32,224 nt of DNA from Bacteroidota bacterium. GTDB lineage: Bacteria; Bacteroidota; Bacteroidia; J057; JAJTIE01. The notes under the pieces were generated by a model. That model was not told where the DNA came from. It saw only the letters and a program-made list of their open reading frames with translations, and made no database searches. This document shows, piece by piece, positions 4,943 to 31,763 of the stretch (the stretch's first letter is position 1; every line of letters begins with the position of its first letter). The position numbers were made by a program, and so were the translations under genes. The stretch covers positions 95,547 to 127,770 of the forward strand of contig JAJTIE010000003.1 in the NCBI GenBank assembly GCA_021300195.1, given 5' to 3'.

Positions 4943-6190
4943 ATGCCAAATTTCCTGATCTCTGGGCCGATCTTCCTGTTTTTTATATGCCTGAATCTGG
5001 CAGCCTGCCTGCCAGGCCTGTGGGCCCAGCCTCTGGCTTCAGACTTTTGGGGCATGCATGTGCATGCGGGGGCACACTTCCCCACCCAGGCGCCCTTTGG
5101 CAGCCTGCGGCTGTGGGACAGCCAGGTGTGCTGGTACCAGCTGGAGCCTACCCAAGACACCTGGAACTGGGCTACCCTGGATGCGCGGGTGAGCCAGGCC
5201 GAGGCGCAGGGGATCTCCATCACCTACGTACTGGGGCAAACTCCCACCTGGGCCACTGCCAACCCCCAGGATACCATTAGCCCCTACTGCCACGGCTGCA
5301 ACCACAACCCCCGTGTGCTGGCCGACTGGGAGGACTATGTGCGCCAACTGGTGCGCCGCTACCGGGGCCGCATACAGGCCTATGAGCTGTGGAATGAGCC
5401 CAACTACCGGCTGTTCTACAACCAGCCAGCAGACAGCTTTATTACCCTGGTGCGGGCTGCCGCGCCGATCATCCGAGCCGAAGACCCCGCAGCGCGCATC
5501 GTAAGCCCGGGCATTATAGCCAACGACTGGAAGTGGCAAAATACCGACGGCCCCACCTGGCTGCGGCAATACTTTGCCCGGGCGGAGGGCCGAAACTGCG
5601 ATGCAGTGGGCATACACCTGTACACCCGCGAAGAACGGCCCCTGGAGCAGGAGCTGCTGCCGCTGATAGATACCGTACGGCACTGCCTGCAGGAGCTGGG
5701 GATGGGCAGCTACCCAATATGGGACACAGAAACAGGCTATGGAAATGCCGAGACGGCAAACCAGAGCAAGGTGCTGTATTATCGGGGCGACTCGGCCCAG
5801 GCCTGTGTGGCCCGGGCGCACCTGCTACGCTGGATGTGGGGTATACAGCGCTACTACTGGTATATGTGGGATAACCTGGGCTGGGTGGGCCTATACATGC
5901 TGCAGCCCGACTATGAGGCTCCTACGGCTGGCCAGCTGGCCTACCGCCGGCTGCGGCAGTGGCTGCTGGGGGCGCGGCTCATCCGCCACGAGCGGCAGGA
6001 TGGGCGCTGGATGTGCGAGATAGAGAAAGACGGCCTGCGCAGCTACATCCTGTGGCACGAAAGCAAAGCCACCGAGTGGGCGGTGCCCGCGGCCTGGCGG
6101 GTGCACCAGCTGCACCACCTGGATGGTACCGCAGGCCCACTGCCTGCTGTACTCTCGGTAGGCCCTGTGCCGATACTACTTACCCCCTAG
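4943..6190 (+). CDS. Secreted clan GH-A glycoside hydrolase
   Basis: The product is 415 residues from the ATG at 4943, chosen because it gives a clean signal peptide (hydrophobic FLFFICLNLAACLPGLWA). An upstream in-frame ATG at 4763 would run through the neighbouring promoter region. The fold is predicted to be a (beta/alpha)8 barrel. YELWNEPN places the likely acid/base at Glu152, and WDTETGYG places the likely nucleophile at Glu263, about 110 residues apart as in clan GH-A retaining enzymes. Supporting features are SLRLWDS near the N-terminus, PTWA, and the DP-x-A-RIVSPG strand. The pattern is closest to GH39/GH5-like cellulase-superfamily proteins, but the exact family and substrate are not certain. 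A weak promoter (TATCTTGC, 4917-4924) lies 18 bases upstream. The gene ends 24 bases before the convergent accC. Confidence 0.82.
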   Translation: MPNFLISGPIFLFFICLNLAACLPGLWAQPLASDFWGMHVHAGAHFPTQAPFGSLRLWDSQVCWYQLEPTQDTWNWATLDARVSQAEAQGISITYVLGQTPTWATANPQDTISPYCHGCNHNPRVLADWEDYVRQLVRRYRGRIQAYELWNEPNYRLFYNQPADSFITLVRAAAPIIRAEDPAARIVSPGIIANDWKWQNTDGPTWLRQYFARAEGRNCDAVGIHLYTREERPLEQELLPLIDTVRHCLQELGMGSYPIWDTETGYGNAETANQSKVLYYRGDSAQACVARAHLLRWMWGIQRYYWYMWDNLGWVGLYMLQPDYEAPTAGQLAYRRLRQWLLGARLIRHERQDGRWMCEIEKDGLRSYILWHESKATEWAVPAAWRVHQLHHLDGTAGPLPAVLSVGPVPILLTP

Positions 6191-6214
6191 CGGGTTTTCC
6201 ACCAGGCGTAGAGC

Positions 6215-7714
6215 CTAGGTGCGGCGGCTACGCCATGCGCTGTAGTGGTGATCCCCCTCCTCGGCCAGGGCGGGTACCGGCCAGGGGTTTCCGGCATCGT
6301 GCGCGGCCAGCAGGGCCGGGGCGGCACTGGCTGCCACGGCAGCCTCAGCAGCCGTGGGGGGCTCTGCCAGCAGCTCGGGCCGGTAGTACTGGCCCACAAA
6401 GCCGGTATCGAACTGGCCGCTGACAAAGGCCTCGTGCTGTAGCACAAAGCGGCAAAAATCCAGGGTGGTCTCCACCCCTACAATCTCGTATCGGCGGATG
6501 GCCTCGATCATTTTTGCAATGGCGGTGCCTCTATCCGCAGCGTGTACAATCAGCTTGCTCAGCATAGGGTCATAGTAGATGGGGATGTCCATCCCCTCGG
6601 CATAGCCATCGTCTACGCGTATGCCCGCCCCCTCGGGTGCCCGGTATACAGCCAGAGTGCCAATATCGGGCAGGAACTGATTGCGTGGGTCCTCGGCATA
6701 CACCCGTACCTCAATGCTGTGGCCCTGTATATGCAGGTCTTCCTGCCCGAAGGGCAGCCGCTCGCCCCGGGCAATGCGTATCTGCCATTCCACCAGGTCC
6801 AGGCCTGTAATCATCTCCGTTACCGGGTGCTCTACCTGCAGGCGGGTGTTCATCTCCAGGAAATAGAATTTCCGGTCGGCATCTACCAGAAACTCTACCG
6901 TGCCGGCATTGGTATAGCTACAGGCCTTGCATACATTCACTGCGGCCTCGCCCATAGCCTTGCGCATCTCGGGAGTCAGGATGGCACTGGGTGCCTCTTC
7001 CACCACCTTCTGGTGGCGGCGCTGCACGCTACACTCTCGCTCAAAGAGGTACACCGTATTGCCCTGCTGGTCGGCCAGCACTTGTATCTCGATGTGGCGG
7101 GGGCCCAGGGCGTATTTTTCGATAAACACGGCACCGTCTCCAAAGGCGCTCTCGGCCTCGTGCACGGCCCCCTGCATCTGGGCCTCAAACTCGGCCTCGT
7201 TTTCTACAATGCGCATGCCCTTTCCGCCCCCGCCGGCACTGGCCTTTATAAGCACCGGGAAGCCAATTTCTCGGGCTATCTGCCGGGCAGCAGCCACATC
7301 GGTTATGGGCTCGGCCATGCCGGGCACCAGGGGCACCCCATAGGCCTGTACAGCCTGCTTGCTGGCTATTTTGCTGCCCATCAGCTGCATACTCTCTGCG
7401 CTAGGGCCTATAAAGGTGATGCCCGCCGCCTGGCAGGCAGTGCGAAAGGCTGCATTCTCGCTCAGGAAGCCGTAGCCGGGGTGCAGGGCATCGGCCCCTG
7501 TTTTTTTGCACAGGGCCAGGATGTCGTCCCCCCGCAGGTAGCTGTCTCGGCTGGGGGCTGGGCCTATGCAGTAGGCCTCGTCGGCATAGGCTACGTGCGG
7601 GCTGTGGGCATCGGCCTCGCTGTAGATGGCTACCGTTTGTATGCCCATGCGGCGGGCGGTCTTCATTACCCGCAGGGCTATCTCGCCGCGGTTGGCTACC
7701 AGTATCTTTTTCAT
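6215..7714 (-). CDS. accC: Acetyl/acyl-CoA carboxylase, biotin carboxylase subunit
   Basis: The 499-residue product starts MKKILVANRGEIALRVM, the standard AccC N-terminus, so the ATG at 7714 is preferred over 7753. It catalyses ATP-dependent carboxylation of biotin on a carrier protein. Visible motifs are the glycine-rich ATP-grasp loop KASAGGGGKGMRIV, RHIEIQVLAD, ERECSVQRRHQKVVEEAPS, and EMNTRLQVEHPVTEMITG with the catalytic E-x-N-x-R. All expected active-site residues appear intact. It is about 50 residues longer than E. coli AccC, with an Ala/Pro-rich C-terminal tail ending HYSAWRSRRT. No carrier domain is fused and no accB lies next to it. A perfect TACCTTTG box is six bases upstream of the ATG. 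The acyl-CoA carboxylase beta subunit at 23366 could be a partner. Confidence 0.94.
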   Translation of the reverse strand: MKKILVANRGEIALRVMKTARRMGIQTVAIYSEADAHSPHVAYADEAYCIGPAPSRDSYLRGDDILALCKKTGADALHPGYGFLSENAAFRTACQAAGITFIGPSAESMQLMGSKIASKQAVQAYGVPLVPGMAEPITDVAAARQIAREIGFPVLIKASAGGGGKGMRIVENEAEFEAQMQGAVHEAESAFGDGAVFIEKYALGPRHIEIQVLADQQGNTVYLFERECSVQRRHQKVVEEAPSAILTPEMRKAMGEAAVNVCKACSYTNAGTVEFLVDADRKFYFLEMNTRLQVEHPVTEMITGLDLVEWQIRIARGERLPFGQEDLHIQGHSIEVRVYAEDPRNQFLPDIGTLAVYRAPEGAGIRVDDGYAEGMDIPIYYDPMLSKLIVHAADRGTAIAKMIEAIRRYEIVGVETTLDFCRFVLQHEAFVSGQFDTGFVGQYYRPELLAEPPTAAEAAVAASAAPALLAAHDAGNPWPVPALAEEGDHHYSAWRSRRT

Positions 7715-23365: not shown

Positions 23366-25006
23366 ATGCCCACCAAAACTGCCAAGCACGCCCCCCCCCT
23401 ACCCGCCCACTATGCCGAGCTGCTGGAGCAGCTGCAGCACAAACAGGCCGAAGTAGCCCTGGGTGGAGGTGCCCAGGCGATAAAAAAGCACAAGGAAAAA
23501 GGGAAATGGACCGCCCGCGAGCGGATAGACTACCTGCTGGACGAGCCGGAAACGGCACTGGAGGTGGGCGAGCTGGCCGCAGACGGCATGTATGCCGAGG
23601 AAGGCGGATGCCCCTCGGCAGGTGTGGTGGTCAAGATCGGGCAGGTGCAGGGCCGCTGGGTGGTCATTGTGGCAAACGATGCCACCGTGAAAGCCGGAGC
23701 CTGGTTCCCCATGACAGGCAAGAAGAACCTGCGTGCCCAAGAGATAGCCATGGAAAACCGCCTGCCCATCCTGTATCTGGTAGACAGCGCGGGGGTGTAC
23801 CTGCCCATGCAGGACGAGATATTTCCGGACAAGGAGCACTTTGGCCGCATTTTCCGCAACAACGCACGCATGAGCAGCATGGGCATCCCCCAGCTGGCCG
23901 CCATCATGGGCCCGTGTGTGGCCGGAGGGGCCTATCTGCCTATCATGAGCGATGAAGCCCTGATTGTAGACGGAACAGGCTCCGTATTCCTGGCTGGTAG
24001 CTACCTGGTAAAGAGCGCCATAGGCGAAGAGGTAGACAACGAGACCCTGGGCGGGGCCACCACCCACACCGAGATAAGCGGGGTGGTAGACTACAAGGTA
24101 AAAGACGACCAGGAGGCCCTGGACACCCTGAAGAACCTGGTGGGCAAGATGGGCGCCACGCCCACAGCCGGCTTTAGCCGTACAGAAGCCCGGCCACCGG
24201 CGGTACCCGCAGAGCGGGTGTTCGACCTACTGCCCACAGACCGGGCCAAACCCTACGACACCCACGAGCTGCTACAGTGCCTGGTGGATGCCGACAGCTG
24301 GGAAGAATACAAGGCTGGCTATGGCCAGACCATCCTGACCGGCTATGCACGCATAGAGGGCTGGGCGGTAGGCATTGTAGCAAACCAGCGAAAAATTGTG
24401 AAAACGGCCAAAGGCGAGATGCAGTTTGGTGGCGTAATCTATAGCGACAGTGCCGATAAGGCCGCCCGCTTTGTGATGAACTGCAACCAGAAGCGCATTC
24501 CGCTGGTCTTTCTGCACGATGCCACCGGCTTTATGGTGGGTAGCCGCAGCGAGCACGGCGGAATCATCAAGGATGGGGCTAAAATGGTGAATGCCGTGGC
24601 CAATAGCGTGGTGCCCAAGTTCAGCATTGTCGTGGGCAATAGCTACGGGGCTGCCAACTATGCCATGTGCGGCAAGGCCTACGATCCCCGCCTGATCTAT
24701 GCCTGGCCTACGGCCCAGATAGCCGTAATGGGCGGTATGCAGGCCGCTAAAACCCTGCTGCAGATACAGGTAGCAGCCCTGAAAAAGAAAGGCGAAACCA
24801 TTACCCCGGAAACCGAGCAGGAACTGCTACAAAAGATAAGCCGCGCCTACGAGGCACAGACCAGCCCCTACTACGCCGCCGCCCGCCTGTGGGTAGACGG
24901 CATCATAGACCCACGCGCCACACGCCACCACCTGAGCGTAGGCATAGCCCTGGCCAACCAGAACCCGGATATACCACCCTACAGTACGGGTGTGATACAA
25001 ACCTAG
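23366..25006 (+). CDS. Acyl-CoA carboxylase, carboxyltransferase (beta) subunit
   Basis: The product is 546 residues from the ATG at 23366; ATGs at 23348 and 23327 are also in frame and cannot be excluded. It transfers the carboxyl group from carboxybiotin to an acyl-CoA. The N-half crotonase-like domain shows GKWTARERIDYLLD and IMGPCVAGGAYLPIMSDEALIV. The C-half shows FLHDATGFMVGSRSEHGGIIKDGAKMV and GNSYGAANYAMCGKAYDPRLIYAWP, then VMGGMQAAKTLLQ. The 'GAANYAMCGKAY' and 'AWPTAQIAVMGG' blocks resemble methylcrotonyl-CoA or geranyl-CoA carboxylase beta more than propionyl-CoA carboxylase. Substrate is therefore tentative. A TATTTTG element near 23330 may be its promoter. Confidence 0.92.
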   Translation: MPTKTAKHAPPLPAHYAELLEQLQHKQAEVALGGGAQAIKKHKEKGKWTARERIDYLLDEPETALEVGELAADGMYAEEGGCPSAGVVVKIGQVQGRWVVIVANDATVKAGAWFPMTGKKNLRAQEIAMENRLPILYLVDSAGVYLPMQDEIFPDKEHFGRIFRNNARMSSMGIPQLAAIMGPCVAGGAYLPIMSDEALIVDGTGSVFLAGSYLVKSAIGEEVDNETLGGATTHTEISGVVDYKVKDDQEALDTLKNLVGKMGATPTAGFSRTEARPPAVPAERVFDLLPTDRAKPYDTHELLQCLVDADSWEEYKAGYGQTILTGYARIEGWAVGIVANQRKIVKTAKGEMQFGGVIYSDSADKAARFVMNCNQKRIPLVFLHDATGFMVGSRSEHGGIIKDGAKMVNAVANSVVPKFSIVVGNSYGAANYAMCGKAYDPRLIYAWPTAQIAVMGGMQAAKTLLQIQVAALKKKGETITPETEQELLQKISRAYEAQTSPYYAAARLWVDGIIDPRATRHHLSVGIALANQNPDIPPYSTGVIQT

Positions 25007-25081
25007 CCCCTAGCCGGGCCCGGCAAGGGCACAACCCCCAAACAGCGGGCTGGATGGGGCCTGCACGGCAAGCCCGGGGCC

Positions 25082-25112
25082 TTGAAAACCCCCGGGTTTA
25101 TGCGCATATTTG
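25082..25112 (+). promoter_or_regulatory. Promoter for the RecB-like gene
   Basis: TTG (25082-25084) is followed after 20 bases by CATATTTG (25105-25112), one mismatch to TAnnTTTG. The GTG start at 25180 lies 67 bases downstream. The spacing matches Bacteroidota promoters. Confidence 0.5.
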
Positions 25113-25179
25113 TTCAGGATCGACACCCCCGGGCAGAGCGGCCTGCGCGCCTGCCGTACATCGTTCAAGATATACCCTC

Positions 25180-28100
25180 GTGCCCCTTACCCTCTACAAA
25201 GCCAGTGCCGGCAGTGGAAAAACCTACACCCTGGCACTCAGATGGCTACAGCTGGCCCTACAGTACCCAGATGCCTGGCAGCACATTCTCGCCATTACTT
25301 TTACCAAAAAAGCCACGGCCGAGATAAAGACCCGACTGCTACGTGTTGTTACCCTGGTGGCCTACCACCAGGAGCCCGACCGGCTGGCCCGCCTGCTAGA
25401 CAGACCTGCAGCCGAAGCCGAAAGCCTGAGGAAAGAGGCCGAAAGCCTGATACGCAAGCTGGAAATCCCGCCCCAGGCTCCCGGCGAAACACTGGCAGAC
25501 CCGGGTAGAAGGCTGCTGCATGCCCTGCTACACCGCTACCATCGGCTAGGCGTTAGCACCATCGATAGCCTGTTTCAGCGCATCGTGTACGCCTACGAGC
25601 GCGAGCTGGGCCTGCCGCTGGGGCGCGAGGTGCTGATAGAGCTGGACCTGCTGGGCGAGCAGCTGGCCGATGAACTGCTACGCCAGCTGCTGCCTGCTAC
25701 CCCCCTGCATGGCCGCCTACTCAGGTACGCCCTGCACCGCCTGGAGGAAAAAAAGAACTGGGAACTGCGCCACCAGCTGCTGGCACTCATCATGCGGCAG
25801 CTGGACAGCAAGGCGGTACCCTACCTGGAGCAGGTGCTGCCCCATGCCGCCCAGCTGCCCACCTATGTGCAGGCCAATGAGGCCCGCCTGGCCCAGCTAG
25901 AGGGCCAGCTGCAAGCCCTGGGCCAGCAGGGGCTGGCACGCTTGCAGGCGCATGGGCTGGAGGTTTCTCATTTCAGCTATGGCAAAAGTGGTGCCGCCCA
26001 GTGGTTTCACCGCCTCGCCCAGCAGCCCCTCCAGCTGGATGGGCATGAGGGCAGAGAACGGCTGAAGCAAGCCGTAGCGTGCGGAACGGCGGAAGGATTT
26101 TACGCCAAACAACAGACCAATGAGATCAGGCAGCGCATAGAGGCCGCCCTGGAAGATGGCCTGTACGACCTCTTTGCCCAGATGCTGGCGCTGCTGGAGG
26201 GGCACGTGCTGCGGGAATACCTCACCCGAAAGCACCTGCAGAAAGAGCTGTATGAGCTACAGCTACAGGTCGATATTGCCGAGTTTTGGAAAGCCTATAA
26301 AGCGCAAGCAGGCATCCAGCTGCTGGGCGATGCCGAACAGCAGATAGCCCGCATCCACGCCGAATCGGACCTGCCTATCCTGTACGAACGCCTGGGCGAC
26401 CGCTACCGGCATATCCTGCTCGACGAGTTTCAGGATACCAGTGAGCAGCAGTGGGCCAACCTGCTGCCCCTGGCCGATGAGGCGCTGGGCAACCATGGCG
26501 TGGTGGTGGTGGTGGGCGATGTGAAGCAGAGCATCTACCGCTTCCGGGGCGGAGCCCCCCAGCTGCTGCAGCAGCAGCTGGGCCAAGACCTAGTGGCCTA
26601 TGCGCCACAAACGATCTCCCTGAATGACAACTACCGCAGCGCCCGTGCCATCGTGCAGGTAAACAATGCACTCTGTAGGCACATACCCCAGTGTACCTAC
26701 AGCAAGGCTGCTCCGGCTATCACCCAGCAGCTCTTGTCGGCCATCTATGGCAACGACGCAGCCCAAACGGCAAAGCTGGACCGAGCGGGCTATGTACACT
26801 GGAAGTTTTATCCCCTAAAGGAGGGAGAAAAGCAGGATAAAAAAGAAGCGAAAGGCGAGCGGAAGGAACAGATAGAGGCCGACTTTTTGAAACAGATACA
26901 GGCCCTGCTGGCAGCGGGCTGGCGGGGTAGCGACCTGCTGATTCTGGTAAGCAAGAACAAGGAGGCCAGCGCGGTGGTAGAGCTGCTGCACACGGCGGGC
27001 ATACCGGTTTTTACCCCCGATGCCCTGCTGCTACAGCATGGGGCACAGGTGCGCCTGCTGCATGCGCTGCTAGCCTACACCCACACCCCCGCAGCCGTGC
27101 ACCTGGCCGAGGCGCTGACTGCCCAGGCTGCCCTGCTGAGCCAGGCACCCGATCCGGCCCTGCTGGCCGCCCCAGTGGCAGCGCAACTGGTGGGCCTATC
27201 GCCAGGGCTGCCTGCGCTCCTGGCAGCCAACCTGCCCCCCTACACCCTGGCCATGCGGCTCTGTGCCCTGTTCGAAACCCTGGACCCCCAGCAGGATGCC
27301 TACCTGCAGCAGTATCTGCAGCTGCTGCACAGCCAACTGGGGCTACACGGGCAGCTAGCCCACTTTCTGCACTACTACGATACCGAAGGCAAGCACAAGA
27401 ACAAGCTGAACCTGCCCGCCAGGCCAGAGGCCGTACAGGTGCTTACCATCCACAAGGCGAAGGGACTAGAGGCACCCGTGGTGCTGCTACCCTACGCAAA
27501 CTGGGACTTCTTCGATAAATTGAGCAGCCAATCCAGCTGGGTGTCTCTTCCGCCCTCTTACGGTATTCCCTTCGCTATACCGGTGGAAGCCCAAACGAAG
27601 ATAGAGCATACCGACCTGGCCGCGGCCTACGAAGAGGAAACCCTGGCTACGCTGCTAGACCAGCTGAACAAGCTGTATGTAGCCACTACACGCGCCGGCC
27701 AGCGCCTGTACGCATGGATAGAACTGCCCCAAGCAGCCGAAAAGAAAGGGAAGAAACAAAAAGAGCAGGAGCAAGCGAAAGAGCAAACTATATCCTCCAG
27801 CGGGGCACTGCTAGACCTGCTGAGCCGCCAGGAGCCCCTGGCGCAGGGCCGCAGCGAGCATGAGTTTGTGTGGGGCACTGCCGAGGCACCGCAGCGGGCA
27901 GAGGCACCCGGGGTGCCCGAGCACCCACAGCCCTACCCCATAGCCGGCAAGCAGCTGATGCCCCTACAGCAACCAACAGCAGGGGCAAACACAGAAGCCC
28001 GGCAACTGGGCGATGACCTGCACGCCGAGCTGGCCCGCCTGGCAAGCCTGCCCACCAGTGCCGTATCTGCGCCCGCCCGGGCGCTGTGGGCGCAGCTGTG

Positions 28101-28392
28101 GCAGCACCCAGCCCTGCAGCCCTACACCAGCTGGCGGCGGCTACCCGAGCAATGCCTGGGCTACCAGGGCCAGCTGCTACGGCCCGACCTGCTGTGCCAA
28201 CAGGGTACACAGCTGGTGCTTATCGACTATAAGAGCGGGCAGCCCGATGCCGCGCACAGCCTACAGGTAGCCACCTACCGGGCTGCCCTACAGGCAGGTG
28301 GCCGGCAGGTAGTGGATGCTTTTCTGGTATACCTGGATGTGGGGCAGGCTAGGGTAACAGCGGTGCAGGCGGTGCCTGCTGCCCAGGGCTAG
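25180..28392 (+). CDS. UvrD/RecB-like helicase-nuclease
   Basis: The 1070-residue protein is taken from a GTG at 25180, because homologous proteins begin a few residues before Walker A (LYKASAGSGKTYTLALRW) and the longer ORF overlaps the carboxylase gene. All UvrD-type motifs are present: Ia ITFTKKATAEIKTRLL, II LLDEFQDT (Asp415-Glu416), III VVGDVKQSIYRFRGG, IV LNDNYRS, V VLTIHKAKGLEAPVV, and VI NKLYVATTRA. The C-terminus is a RecB-type PD-(D/E)xK nuclease with LLRPDLL, LVLIDYKSG (Asp1016, Lys1018) and the QVATYRAAL helix. It probably resects double-strand breaks in an AddAB/RecBCD-like manner. A partner AddB/RecC gene is not in the window. Its 3' end overlaps the convergent repeat gene by 44 bases. 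Confidence 0.92.
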   Translation: MPLTLYKASAGSGKTYTLALRWLQLALQYPDAWQHILAITFTKKATAEIKTRLLRVVTLVAYHQEPDRLARLLDRPAAEAESLRKEAESLIRKLEIPPQAPGETLADPGRRLLHALLHRYHRLGVSTIDSLFQRIVYAYERELGLPLGREVLIELDLLGEQLADELLRQLLPATPLHGRLLRYALHRLEEKKNWELRHQLLALIMRQLDSKAVPYLEQVLPHAAQLPTYVQANEARLAQLEGQLQALGQQGLARLQAHGLEVSHFSYGKSGAAQWFHRLAQQPLQLDGHEGRERLKQAVACGTAEGFYAKQQTNEIRQRIEAALEDGLYDLFAQMLALLEGHVLREYLTRKHLQKELYELQLQVDIAEFWKAYKAQAGIQLLGDAEQQIARIHAESDLPILYERLGDRYRHILLDEFQDTSEQQWANLLPLADEALGNHGVVVVVGDVKQSIYRFRGGAPQLLQQQLGQDLVAYAPQTISLNDNYRSARAIVQVNNALCRHIPQCTYSKAAPAITQQLLSAIYGNDAAQTAKLDRAGYVHWKFYPLKEGEKQDKKEAKGERKEQIEADFLKQIQALLAAGWRGSDLLILVSKNKEASAVVELLHTAGIPVFTPDALLLQHGAQVRLLHALLAYTHTPAAVHLAEALTAQAALLSQAPDPALLAAPVAAQLVGLSPGLPALLAANLPPYTLAMRLCALFETLDPQQDAYLQQYLQLLHSQLGLHGQLAHFLHYYDTEGKHKNKLNLPARPEAVQVLTIHKAKGLEAPVVLLPYANWDFFDKLSSQSSWVSLPPSYGIPFAIPVEAQTKIEHTDLAAAYEEETLATLLDQLNKLYVATTRAGQRLYAWIELPQAAEKKGKKQKEQEQAKEQTISSSGALLDLLSRQEPLAQGRSEHEFVWGTAEAPQRAEAPGVPEHPQPYPIAGKQLMPLQQPTAGANTEARQLGDDLHAELARLASLPTSAVSAPARALWAQLWQHPALQPYTSWRRLPEQCLGYQGQLLRPDLLCQQGTQLVLIDYKSGQPDAAHSLQVATYRAALQAGGRQVVDAFLVYLDVGQARVTAVQAVPAAQG

Positions 28393-29794
28393 CCGGCGCG
28401 CCCACAGGCCTTCCTCCCTTATTCTGTGGCTGCAGGTGCGGGGCCGTGCGGATGCCATAGGGGGCGGTTACCCCACCATAGCGGCGGTACTGGCAGCGGG
28501 CTATGTGGCTGGGCAGGTTAGGCCGCTCCTCGGGGTACATGCGTATCAGTTGCTCCGTCATCCCTTTCTGGATGAAATGCTCAATCATCAGATCCTTGGT
28601 TTCGGCCTCACTCAGCAGCACCCGCTTAAATGTAACCTCGCCCTGCCGGTTGCGCCGCATGGCGGGGTCTACCGGCACAATCACGATGAGATTTCGCACC
28701 GCTGCCCGCTTCAGCTTTACAATGCGTTTCTTGCTGCTGTCGGCATCTGCCCAGCGTACCATGCGCTTTATGCGCTTGTCTATCACATAGTCTGCTATCA
28801 TTACGGTTCCGTAGTCTTCGGTCTTTACCATCTGCCCGGCCGACAGGGAGGAGACTACGTTGCTCAGCTTACAGTTCTTCTTGTGGTTGCGCATCAGCAT
28901 CTGCATCTGGTAGGCAGCGCGCTCCAGGTTGGTCGTGCGTTTCATACTGGGGTCGCAGGGCACACGGTACTTGTGCAGCGGGGTGTGCTTTATCTTCAGG
29001 TGGCCACAGGTAGTGCCATCCAGGCTGCGGTGCCGTATCCGCAGCTGGCGGCAGGCGGTGCCATCCAGGCTCTGGTGGCGTATACGCAGGCGGCTGCACG
29101 CAGTGCCATCCAGGCTGCGGTGCTGTATCCGCAGACGTCGGCAGGCGGTGCCATCCAGGCTCTGATGTCGTATGCGCAGGTGGCCACAGGTAGTACCATC
29201 CAGGCTGCGGTGCTGTATCCGCATACGTCGGCAGGCGGTGCCGTCCAGGCTCTGATGGCGTATACGCAGGCGGCTGCACGTAGTGCCATCCACCATACGG
29301 TGCTGTATCCGCAGCTGGCGGCAGGCGGTGCCGTCCAGACCCTGGTGGCGCACAGCCCGGCGAAGGCAGGCGGCACCATCCACCGTGCGGTGCTGTATCC
29401 GCAGCCGGCGGCCCGTGTAGCCCATGGCAGCCTTGCTGGGCCACGGCCTGCGCTTTTTTGCCCACAGCTCGCCGCCATCCCGTAGGCTGTGCCGGGTGCG
29501 CGGGGTGTATGGCTTTGCATACAGCCCACCGGGGCGATGCCTTGGGCGGCGGGGTATCCGGGAAGCTGGCGGGCTGTCCCCTTTCCGCGGGGTGGCTTCG
29601 TCGGATGAGCCCCGGAGGTAGCCACCTGCGAGCAGTCGCATTCTTTGGGGAGGGCGATAAGCGGTGCGGGTGGCGGCTGGGGGGTAGGCCTGTGCTACAG
29701 CGAGCGAGCACTCCTGGGCCGCAGACTGACAGGCTGCCGCCTGCAGCAGAGATCCCAATGCCACGAGGGCCCAGAATGTGCGCACTCCTTGCAT
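28349..29794 (-). CDS. Exported basic protein with 15-residue Cys/His tandem repeats, unrecognised family
   Basis: The 481-residue product starts MQGVRTFWALVALGSLLQAA, a signal peptide; the Cys at residue 22 after QAAA gives an imperfect lipobox. Residues 40-125 are Arg/Pro-rich. Residues 129-263 are nine 15-residue repeats, and a tenth decays by about 275; the pattern is LRI-x-H-x-SLDGT-x-C, with Cys at 143 then every 15 residues to 263 and His at 135 then every 15 to 270. I, L/V and C also recur every five residues. The C-terminal 200 residues are basic, with VPCDPSMKR and VPVDPAMRR as a possible second internal repeat, and end in a Pro-rich tail. Several other frames are open across the repeats, but only this one spans the gene and joins a signal peptide to a TAGTTTTG promoter box 10 bases upstream. 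Function unknown; I recognise no known domain. Confidence 0.72.
   Translation of the reverse strand: MQGVRTFWALVALGSLLQAAACQSAAQECSLAVAQAYPPAATRTAYRPPQRMRLLAGGYLRGSSDEATPRKGDSPPASRIPRRPRHRPGGLYAKPYTPRTRHSLRDGGELWAKKRRPWPSKAAMGYTGRRLRIQHRTVDGAACLRRAVRHQGLDGTACRQLRIQHRMVDGTTCSRLRIRHQSLDGTACRRMRIQHRSLDGTTCGHLRIRHQSLDGTACRRLRIQHRSLDGTACSRLRIRHQSLDGTACRQLRIRHRSLDGTTCGHLKIKHTPLHKYRVPCDPSMKRTTNLERAAYQMQMLMRNHKKNCKLSNVVSSLSAGQMVKTEDYGTVMIADYVIDKRIKRMVRWADADSSKKRIVKLKRAAVRNLIVIVPVDPAMRRNRQGEVTFKRVLLSEAETKDLMIEHFIQKGMTEQLIRMYPEERPNLPSHIARCQYRRYGGVTAPYGIRTAPHLQPQNKGGRPVGAPASPGQQAPPAPLLP
28990..29419 (-). repeat. Nine tandem 45-bp repeats plus a degenerate tenth
   Basis: Unit boundaries fall every 45 bases, at 29015, 29060, 29105, 29150, 29195, 29240, 29285, 29330 and 29375. 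Alternate units are more alike than neighbours, giving a 90-bp higher-order period. The units at 29330 and 29375 are the most divergent, and 28990-29014 preserves part of a tenth. The period is a multiple of three, so copy-number change would keep the reading frame. Confidence 0.93.
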
Positions 29795-29804
29795 ACAATC
29801 TTCA

Positions 29805-29812
29805 CAAAACTA
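29805..29812 (-). promoter_or_regulatory. Bacteroidota -7 box TAGTTTTG before the repeat-protein gene
   Basis: A perfect TAnnTTTG on the minus strand, with the ATG 10 bases downstream. It supports the assigned reading frame and start. A TTC about 19 bases upstream is a poor -33 candidate. Confidence 0.6.
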
Positions 29813-29954: not shown

Positions 29955-31763
29955 CTAAAACCGGATGCCAATCACCACGACGTCATCCGTCTGCTCCATA
30001 TCCCCGCGCCAGTGGCGCAGCTCAGCATCCAGCAGCAGCCGCTGGTACTCCATATCCTTATCGTGTATCTCCTGCAGGAAGGTCTGAAATCGCTTGCCCT
30101 GAAATCGCTTGTTGATCTCCTCGCCTATCTGGTCCGGATAACCATCGCTGTAGATGTACACCGTGTCTCCGGCTTCCATCTCAAGGGTATGGGTGGTGTA
30201 GGACGCTACCTCTTCGATCTGGTAGCCGCCTATGCCCTGTTTATCGCCCTTTATCTCCTCTATCTCGCCGTTTGCGCGCACAATCAGCAGGGGGCGGTTG
30301 GCACCGGCATATTGTAGCTTGCCGCGCTTGGTATCTACCTGCAGCAGGGCAATATCCAGCCCATCCTGGTTCTTTCTGCGTCCGGCCTCAGTGCTCTCCG
30401 TCTCCTGCTGTAGGGCTACACGCACCCGCAGGTTTAGGTGGTACAGGATCTCATCGGGCTTGAAGATGCCCTCCAGCTCTACAATCTGCCGCAGCAGGGT
30501 GTTGGCCATGATGGTCATAAATGCCCCGGGTATACCGTGGCCGGTGCAGTCTGCCGCAGCAATGATGGCCTTGCTGAGCCTGCGGCTAAACCAGTAGAAG
30601 TCGCCGGATACAATGTCCTTGGGCTTATAGTATACCAAGCTCTGGGGGAAAGTCTTTTTAATACCCTCCAAGCTGGGCAAAAAAGCATCCTGTATGCGCC
30701 GTGCGTAGTTTATACTGGAGATGATGTCATCATTTTTCTGGCGAATCAACTCGTGGCTGCGCTCTATCTCCTCCTTCTGTGCCTTTACTTCGCGGGTACG
30801 CTCCTCCACCTTAGCCTCCATGTAGGAGTAGAGTTGTGCATTCTGTATGGCTATAGCGGCCGGGGCAGTAAGCAGGCGGAGTAGTTCCAAGCTTTCGTTA
30901 CTAAAGGCGTGGGTCTTCTCGCTGTTTTCCAGGTAGAGGATGCCATAGAGCTTGCCCTGATAAATCAGCGGCGTGCAGAGTATGCTTCGGCAGAGATTTT
31001 TTCGTATGTAGGGATGACTGAGGAAGTTACCTTCCTTCAAAGCATCGTGCAGGATAATGTTCTCGCGCGTGCGCACAACATATTCTACCACCGCAGGGCA
31101 TACCGGGCTGAAGTCCGATATCTCCGCCCGCCCGGTTTGGGTAGCATGTTCGGTGGGGGTGCCGCTTGCCTCTATGAATATTCGTCCATCTGCGTCCTCC
31201 ATCAGGATATAACCCTTGCGGGCATCGGCATTTTCTACCACCAGGCGCATGAGCTTGTGTAGCAGCTTGTGCAGCTGTATCTCTCCTGTGATGCTCATAC
31301 TGGCCCGGTGGAGCTCGGTTAGGATCCGGGCTTTTTGGGTTACCTCCTGCTGCTGGAGATAGAAGCGACTAGCCTCACGCAGGCCGAGCCCAAAAGTGAT
31401 TTCGTCCAGCGGACGGTAGAAGATACGAAAGATCTTGGCAGCCTCCACCTCGTCTGCATCCAGGTTCTCGGGCCCGTCAGTTATCAGGATGCGTAGCCCA
31501 TGCGGCCATTTTTCATAAGCCCGCCGCAAGTGGCGGACAGCCAACTGGTCGTTCCCGTCGCTGGACACAATGGTCATGGCAATTTCCACCCCCTCCAGCA
31601 CCATTCGGTCCAGCCGGCGCAGCAGGTCGTCTGCATCTGCCGCCACTATCAGTTCATAGGCCTGCACTACGCCACCAAATAGGCCCCGCACCCGGCCCAG
31701 GCTGACACGGTCTGGCTCTACCAGCAGTATTACTGGCTTTATGATATCCGGATGATCCTCCAA
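29955..31763 (-). CDS. REC-GAF-SpoIIE (PP2C-type) phosphatase
   Basis: The 602-residue product begins at a TTG (31763): an in-frame stop lies two codons upstream and the next ATG would remove the first strands of the REC domain. Residues 9-120 look like a receiver domain, with PVILLVEPD, ILITD and FYRPLD, where Arg117 replaces the usual lysine; Asp69 may be the acceptor but the surroundings are atypical. A GAF domain spans about 145-310 and a coiled coil about 312-365. The C-terminal SpoIIE/PP2C domain keeps its metal ligands: SGDFYWF (Asp388), AADCTGHGIPGAF (Asp405), YSDGYPDQ (Asp540) and QTDDVVVIG (Asp593-594). It should dephosphorylate Ser/Thr on a partner such as an anti-sigma antagonist, with the GAF domain sensing a signal. 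No kinase gene is adjacent. Confidence 0.9.
   Translation of the reverse strand: MEDHPDIIKPVILLVEPDRVSLGRVRGLFGGVVQAYELIVAADADDLLRRLDRMVLEGVEIAMTIVSSDGNDQLAVRHLRRAYEKWPHGLRILITDGPENLDADEVEAAKIFRIFYRPLDEITFGLGLREASRFYLQQQEVTQKARILTELHRASMSITGEIQLHKLLHKLMRLVVENADARKGYILMEDADGRIFIEASGTPTEHATQTGRAEISDFSPVCPAVVEYVVRTRENIILHDALKEGNFLSHPYIRKNLCRSILCTPLIYQGKLYGILYLENSEKTHAFSNESLELLRLLTAPAAIAIQNAQLYSYMEAKVEERTREVKAQKEEIERSHELIRQKNDDIISSINYARRIQDAFLPSLEGIKKTFPQSLVYYKPKDIVSGDFYWFSRRLSKAIIAAADCTGHGIPGAFMTIMANTLLRQIVELEGIFKPDEILYHLNLRVRVALQQETESTEAGRRKNQDGLDIALLQVDTKRGKLQYAGANRPLLIVRANGEIEEIKGDKQGIGGYQIEEVASYTTHTLEMEAGDTVYIYSDGYPDQIGEEINKRFQGKRFQTFLQEIHDKDMEYQRLLLDAELRHWRGDMEQTDDVVVIGIRF

Follow-up and report, generated by a model that had tools for sequence, protein, structure and literature searches.

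The pentapeptide-repeat proteins, which form a right-handed quadrilateral beta-helix, and the spruce budworm-type antifreeze proteins, which form a 15-residue left-handed beta-helix, are among the closest described counterparts of a tandem-repeat protein encoded in a 32,224-nucleotide stretch of DNA (the window) from a Bacteroidota bacterium. As in the pentapeptide-repeat proteins, its hydrophobic or central residues recur at intervals of about five (positions 4, 9 and 14 of each unit); unlike in them, a possible coil would take 15 residues, not 20, the central residues are flanked by Arg, Gln and His, and there is no Pfam match. An earlier sequence-only reading had noted that I, L/V and C recur every five residues. 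This recurrence is seen as L4, C9 and I14 of the unit, whereas pentad periodicity by itself is not significant (column-permutation fraction 0.13 for the window array), and the i-2 positions of the pentads carry R, T or L rather than consistently small residues. With the budworm-type antifreeze proteins it shares the 15-residue unit and a possible three-sided coil; in contrast to them it lacks the TxT face, is basic rather than neutral, is bacterial, is joined to a C-terminal domain and has no sequence match in PDB. Multihaem cytochromes and metallothionein-like proteins are similar in their many Cys, and in the His of the array, and differ in that CXXCH occurs in none of 19 family sequences, CXXC is essentially absent and the Cys are spaced at 15-16 residues. 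The absence of CXXCH from all members excludes haem binding through this motif, haem having been among the ligands earlier proposed. Finally, CarD, the UvrD-type Tudor domain and the SH3-like KOW domain of Mtr4 weakly resemble the predicted beta-core of the C-terminal domain in two models (Z 3.5 each); these are intracellular partners of nucleic acids or RNA polymerase, whereas the window protein is exported and has no detectable sequence relation to them.

The gene and its parts are as follows:

28349..29794 (-), whole gene, 481 aa with an ATG start, defined by the ORF list, in-frame homologues and the third-position excess against the homologue from genome G001
29805..29812 (-), promoter-like box TAGTTTTG, matching the Bacteroidota -7 box TAnnTTTG
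29723..29794 (-), probable signal peptide, residues 1-24, by inspection and from relatives with comparable hydrophobic leaders
29393..29722 (-), variable basic Pro/Arg-rich linker, residues 25-134, by alignment
28988..29392 (-), nine 15-residue units, residues 135-269, consensus H-[RQ]-S-L-D-G-T-[AT]-C-x-x-L-R-I-[RQ], forming the proximal Cys ladder
28952..28987 (-), junction HTPLHKYRVPCD, residues 270-281, conserved as HxPxxxYxVxCD[PA] in most lineages
28487..28957 (-), conserved C-terminal domain, residues 280-436, from alignments A2 and A5, an AF2 model and genome profile searches
28352..28486 (-), variable Gly/Pro-rich C-terminal tail, residues 437-481, by alignment, with pLDDT mostly below 50

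The 481-aa frame is a genuine gene, since its homologues continue in frame with the same layout and the substitutions favour this frame. The homologue from G001 is 50% identical in pairwise alignment across residues 67-479, and codon-aligned comparison of the C-terminal part gives 78, 64 and 122 changes at codon positions 1, 2 and 3, respectively. Identity to G001 is 53.5% in the 481-aa frame versus 30-50% in the other five, and the shifted frames on the same strand contain 8-24 stops in this comparison. Comparison between units of the array yields a pN of 0.318 and a pS of 0.497 in the 481-aa frame; pN exceeds pS in 4/5 alternative frames, and the array pN/pS is lowest in the 481-aa frame. 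Other long frames do cross the array (349 aa on the + strand, 309 and 209 aa on the - strand), as would be expected if 45-bp tandem repeats merely held frames open and the real coding lay in another frame or on the other strand. Given the codon-position changes, stops and pN/pS values, we consider such a spurious ORF extremely improbable and reject it; the assignment of 28349-29794 (-) as coding, made earlier from the sequence, is thus upheld. A convergent UvrD-like helicase gene (24889-28392, +) shares its 3' end (28349-28392, 44 bp) with the repeat gene, tail to tail, and a gene for a GAF + SpoIIE-type phosphatase (29955-31763) lies upstream on the same strand. Neither neighbour was found beside relatives of the repeat gene, and we found no gene neighbourhood conserved between lineages, and hence no conserved operon partner or guilt-by-association. 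There was no metal transporter among the neighbour genes examined.

Inspection of the N-terminal sequence MQGVRTFWALVALGSLLQAAACQSAAQ agrees with the export signal claimed by the sequence-only reading, and the leaders of relatives are likewise hydrophobic, several of them ending in AQ. The window protein has AAAC at residues 19-22, which raises the question of a lipobox; by inspection, Cys is missing from this position in most relatives. Near the mature N-terminus, every other full-length member examined has a C-x-G-x-x-C motif, which is missing from the window protein, L018 and L021, and so from the window's own family as well as L021. The proposed promoter box is present as a TAnnTTTG match at 29812-29805; however, its end lies just 10 nt from the ATG and there is no TTG (-33 element) at 17-23 nt spacing, so its support for expression is weak. 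No T9SS C-terminal sorting domain (Por_Secre_tail and relatives) was matched by Pfam in the window protein or its relatives.

In the array, His 135, 150, ... 255 and Cys 143, 158, ... 263 define nine H-x7-C-x6-H units with a period of exactly 15. There are 9 pairs of His with a Cys at +7 or +8, whereas 1000 shuffled versions of this stretch average 1.09 such pairs and never exceed 6, so that the exact register of nine copies originally described stands far above chance. At the DNA level the array (29012-29412) has a period of 45 with higher-order copies of 90 and 180 bp, which match at 84% and 89%, respectively, versus 67% for the single-unit period. As the 90- and 180-bp blocks are more alike than single units, the array has grown through duplication of blocks of two and four units, and this also accounts for the alternation of QHR and RHQ between adjacent units. 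The high basicity claimed for the protein is confirmed by a pI of 11.2, with 90 K/R versus 32 D/E in the scored stretch. Structure prediction for the mature protein gave a mean pLDDT of 43, with about 35-38 in the array and one short predicted strand in most units; at such low confidence the AF2 array model is no evidence for a solenoid.

The supposed decaying tenth unit (H270 to C280) is instead a junction conserved in most lineages, leading into a domain of about 160 residues with C280 and C308, a SAGQ segment and ETK and MYPEE motifs. Residues 275-440, singled out earlier as a separate piece for searching, turn out to hold the part that defines the family. The A5 alignment of the domain has a mean column identity of 47%, with invariant C, E/K of ETK and YPEE residues; among its Cys, C15 is near-invariant and C43 invariant. 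An AF2 model of the domain (L018 and four relatives) has a mean pLDDT of 66 and a predicted order of helix, beta-core and three helices. Fold searches, all below the confident threshold, returned a UvrD-type Tudor domain for one model (Z 3.5, 48 aligned, rmsd 2.3) and CarD for the other (Z 3.5, 79 aligned, rmsd 5.0). No confident structural match was found, the best Foldseek E-value being 0.16, and the possible SH3-like core is to be taken as a lead only. The top Foldseek rows were peptide deformylases, which are not credible (E 0.16, TM about 0.2).

Searches with this domain (A2, then the A5 profile) recovered carriers in 22/395 sampled genomes of the class, with one gene each; in members of the f46 lineage two matching pieces belong to a single gene. 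The A5 profile, which includes the window sequence, matches the window protein with E = 2.4e-71. In the window's order the count of genomes with the domain is 6/22, in families f1, f2, f3 and f8, and the domain profile found nothing in the f4, f5 and f6 genomes or in the incomplete f7 genome. The domain is retained in 13/13 genomes of one other order and in 3/3 of a third. A whole-genome search detected relatives in 6/60 near genomes, including the window's own, and in two phylum-wide samples, seemingly drawn from well-studied groups, only the window's own genome matched. Scans of genome contigs gave no relatives with a single-protein query and four records of relatives with an alignment query. 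In each genome the matches to a repeat-only profile were confined to the same gene, and thus the single-repeat search proposed earlier found the repeat nowhere outside these genes. No sequence match was found in Pfam, NCBIfam, PHROGs or PDB; in Pfam the window protein had no family at E up to 1 and its relatives gave only weak, unrelated helix-turn-helix and herpesvirus matches. These negatives bear out the earlier statement that no recognised family is involved, and literature searches returned nothing relevant. A phage or mobile origin likewise has no support, with no relative in phage records (repeat region only), IMG/VR or PHROGs. We regard these genes as a real family, so far without a name, whose protein products are exported and strongly basic; it belongs to poorly known Bacteroidia lineages and is present in single copy in every sampled genome of two small orders. 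As a side observation, the homologue of G003 (L007 1126-2388, L004 1465-2259) is probably split inside the array at the ends of contigs C22 and C2, probably by an assembly break.

Members share the order of a hydrophobic leader, C-x-G-x-x-C (in most), a basic Cys-free zone, a zone with one Cys per unit, the junction and the domain. The array occupies 128-471 residues between the N-terminal segment and the domain in full-length members, the pI of members is about 10-11.6, and the unit generalises across lineages to H-[KR]-x-hydrophobic-[DE]-x3-[C or Y]-x2-[L/P/Y]-x-[IV]-x. Most lineages have a hydrophobic residue or Cys at positions 4, 9 and 14, as a 15-residue coil with three sides would allow. 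With the anchor set by the pattern CDP, CDA, TDP or CPIQF, the proximal Cys of nearly all lineages lie 17, 32-33, 47-50, 62-66, 77-83, ... residues upstream of the first Cys of the domain, and this phase spacing is present in f1, f3, f8, f77, f50 and f46. The window protein has Cys 17, 32, 47 ... 137 residues upstream of the domain Cys; L035 of the f46 lineage has them at 17, 32, 48, 63, 79, 94, 110 and 125, with an extra f46 Cys at 7. In this lineage (L035, L046) the ladder is kept with almost no His. Conversely, the outer, Cys-free zone is a variable basic region of His/Arg/Lys units of 15-18 residues, and distal units of L018, L019, L022, L039 and the f50 lineage keep His and basic residues without Cys. 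The sequence-only reading had described a fixed Cys/His lattice; since His is separable from Cys and extends beyond the Cys zone, this joint lattice does not appear to be what selection preserves. By sequence comparison, the deepest feature of the array is the Cys ladder, as its phase holds across lineages, even in f46. In L019 and L039 the Cys has moved from unit position 9 to position 8, beside Tyr9, and its retention despite this shift suggests that the thiol matters and not bulk alone. What is new here is the family and its phase-locked Cys ladder rather than any proven mechanism. L021 (G002, 5518-6543), the only lineage of its kind, has the C-terminal domain without a Cys zone or array. 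The domain thus occurs in the absence of a ladder, and the array would be dispensable for some of the domain's functions. The f46 homologues (L035 412-2019, L046 8741-10228) also stand out by a double unit of 31 residues that contains two Cys, and by a C-terminal extension rich in Lys, Arg and Glu.

A regular row of Cys in an exported protein poses the question of what the thiols are for, particularly in bacteria without the DsbB or VKOR oxidases. None of the 17 carriers tested had a match to VKOR (PF07884), whose single match among 23 genomes was in a non-carrier, and DsbB (PF02600) was found in 0/15 genomes, of which 12 are carriers; each search succeeded on named control genomes. As neither enzyme was found in the carriers tested, enzymatic disulfide formation via VKOR or DsbB is unlikely in them. 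The disulfide stacking suggested by the sequence-only reading is hence less likely in its enzymatic form, while other oxidants could still produce it. As the ladder is phase-locked, the question of thiol purpose is a testable one.

We tentatively favour, as a possibility rather than the probable answer in all its parts, a single-copy, Sec-exported, basic, polyanion-binding envelope scaffold with a domain-anchored, thiol-lined rod; the broader role as a cell-envelope scaffold is probable. The C-terminal domain, with its helix, SH3-like beta-core and helical end, would dock the protein to a fixed envelope partner, and the repeats, with one beta-strand per unit, would form a rod or solenoid whose length changes by block duplication. 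The outer His/Arg/Lys zone, to judge from its charge, may bind polyanions, for example LPS, exopolysaccharide or DNA; the inner zone beside the domain would present a row of thiols, one per unit and in phase with the domain. In this reading the thiols would be structural, either lined up in a stack along one rod or linked to those of adjacent rods, directly or through metal. The leader, the pI of members and the pan-order retention (13/13 and 3/3) are consistent with this scaffold; the lack of a conserved operon partner suggests a stand-alone structural role, and a domain conserved while array length varies widely, with block duplication in the DNA, makes the array look like a spacer. The fixed Cys phase upstream of the domain, the hydrophobic or Cys positions 4, 9 and 14 and the short strand predicted, at low confidence, in most units also fit. 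The low array pLDDT (about 35-38), the best fold Z of 3.5 and the L021 protein, which has the domain but no array, argue against the scaffold.

Several of the same observations can be read otherwise. The thiol row, aided by His where present, might bind Cu(I), Zn, Cd or Hg as a periplasmic or surface store, buffer or sensor. One Cys per unit in fixed phase across lineages, the frequent His and the 9 to 8 shift in L019/L039, which favours a need for thiol over hydrophobic packing, are in line with this, and without VKOR or DsbB the thiols could stay reduced. However, His is nearly lost in f46 and distal units lack Cys, so that no common Cys/His site is conserved; the neighbours are not conserved, those examined include no metal transporter, and the high basicity of the protein would be unusual for a metal store, most of these being acidic or neutral. 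We consider metal binding rather unlikely on this balance. Disulfides between units or molecules, which would build a basic, insoluble layer in the envelope or a fibre outside the cell, are unlikely too: the many evenly spaced Cys of an exported protein, the conserved C15 and C43 of the domain and the N-terminal C-x-G-x-x-C of most members would suit such a matrix, whereas the missing VKOR and DsbB speak against it unless other or non-enzymatic oxidants act. It is doubtful that Cys is simply a buried core residue of a beta-solenoid, without thiol chemistry, in a fibrous adhesin or spacer. Positions 4, 9 and 14 are indeed hydrophobic or Cys, and some units have Tyr, Met, Phe or Leu in place of Cys9, but Cys is kept in three orders and occurs at position 8 next to Tyr9 in L019 and L039, for which packing alone is insufficient. 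An equally doubtful, more specific proposal is an exported thiol-ladder rod in which reduced Cys, stacked per coil and phase-locked to the anchor, would act as a one-dimensional metal-thiolate or redox wire or as a cross-linking strip in the envelope of lineages without DsbB and VKOR; such a rod would be a new class.

One further tblastn match (E 3e-5), to a Lactococcus plasmid, was rejected as a relative, as it is a different 15-residue amphipathic repeat, GGITENIPEQIQNVA, without a Cys/His array and sharing the period alone. It lies in Lactococcus garvieae pLG42 (L036 1316-1978), which codes for a 220-aa protein, unrelated to the window protein, with about a dozen near-identical GGITENIPEQIQNVA units, directly after a heavy-metal P-type ATPase.
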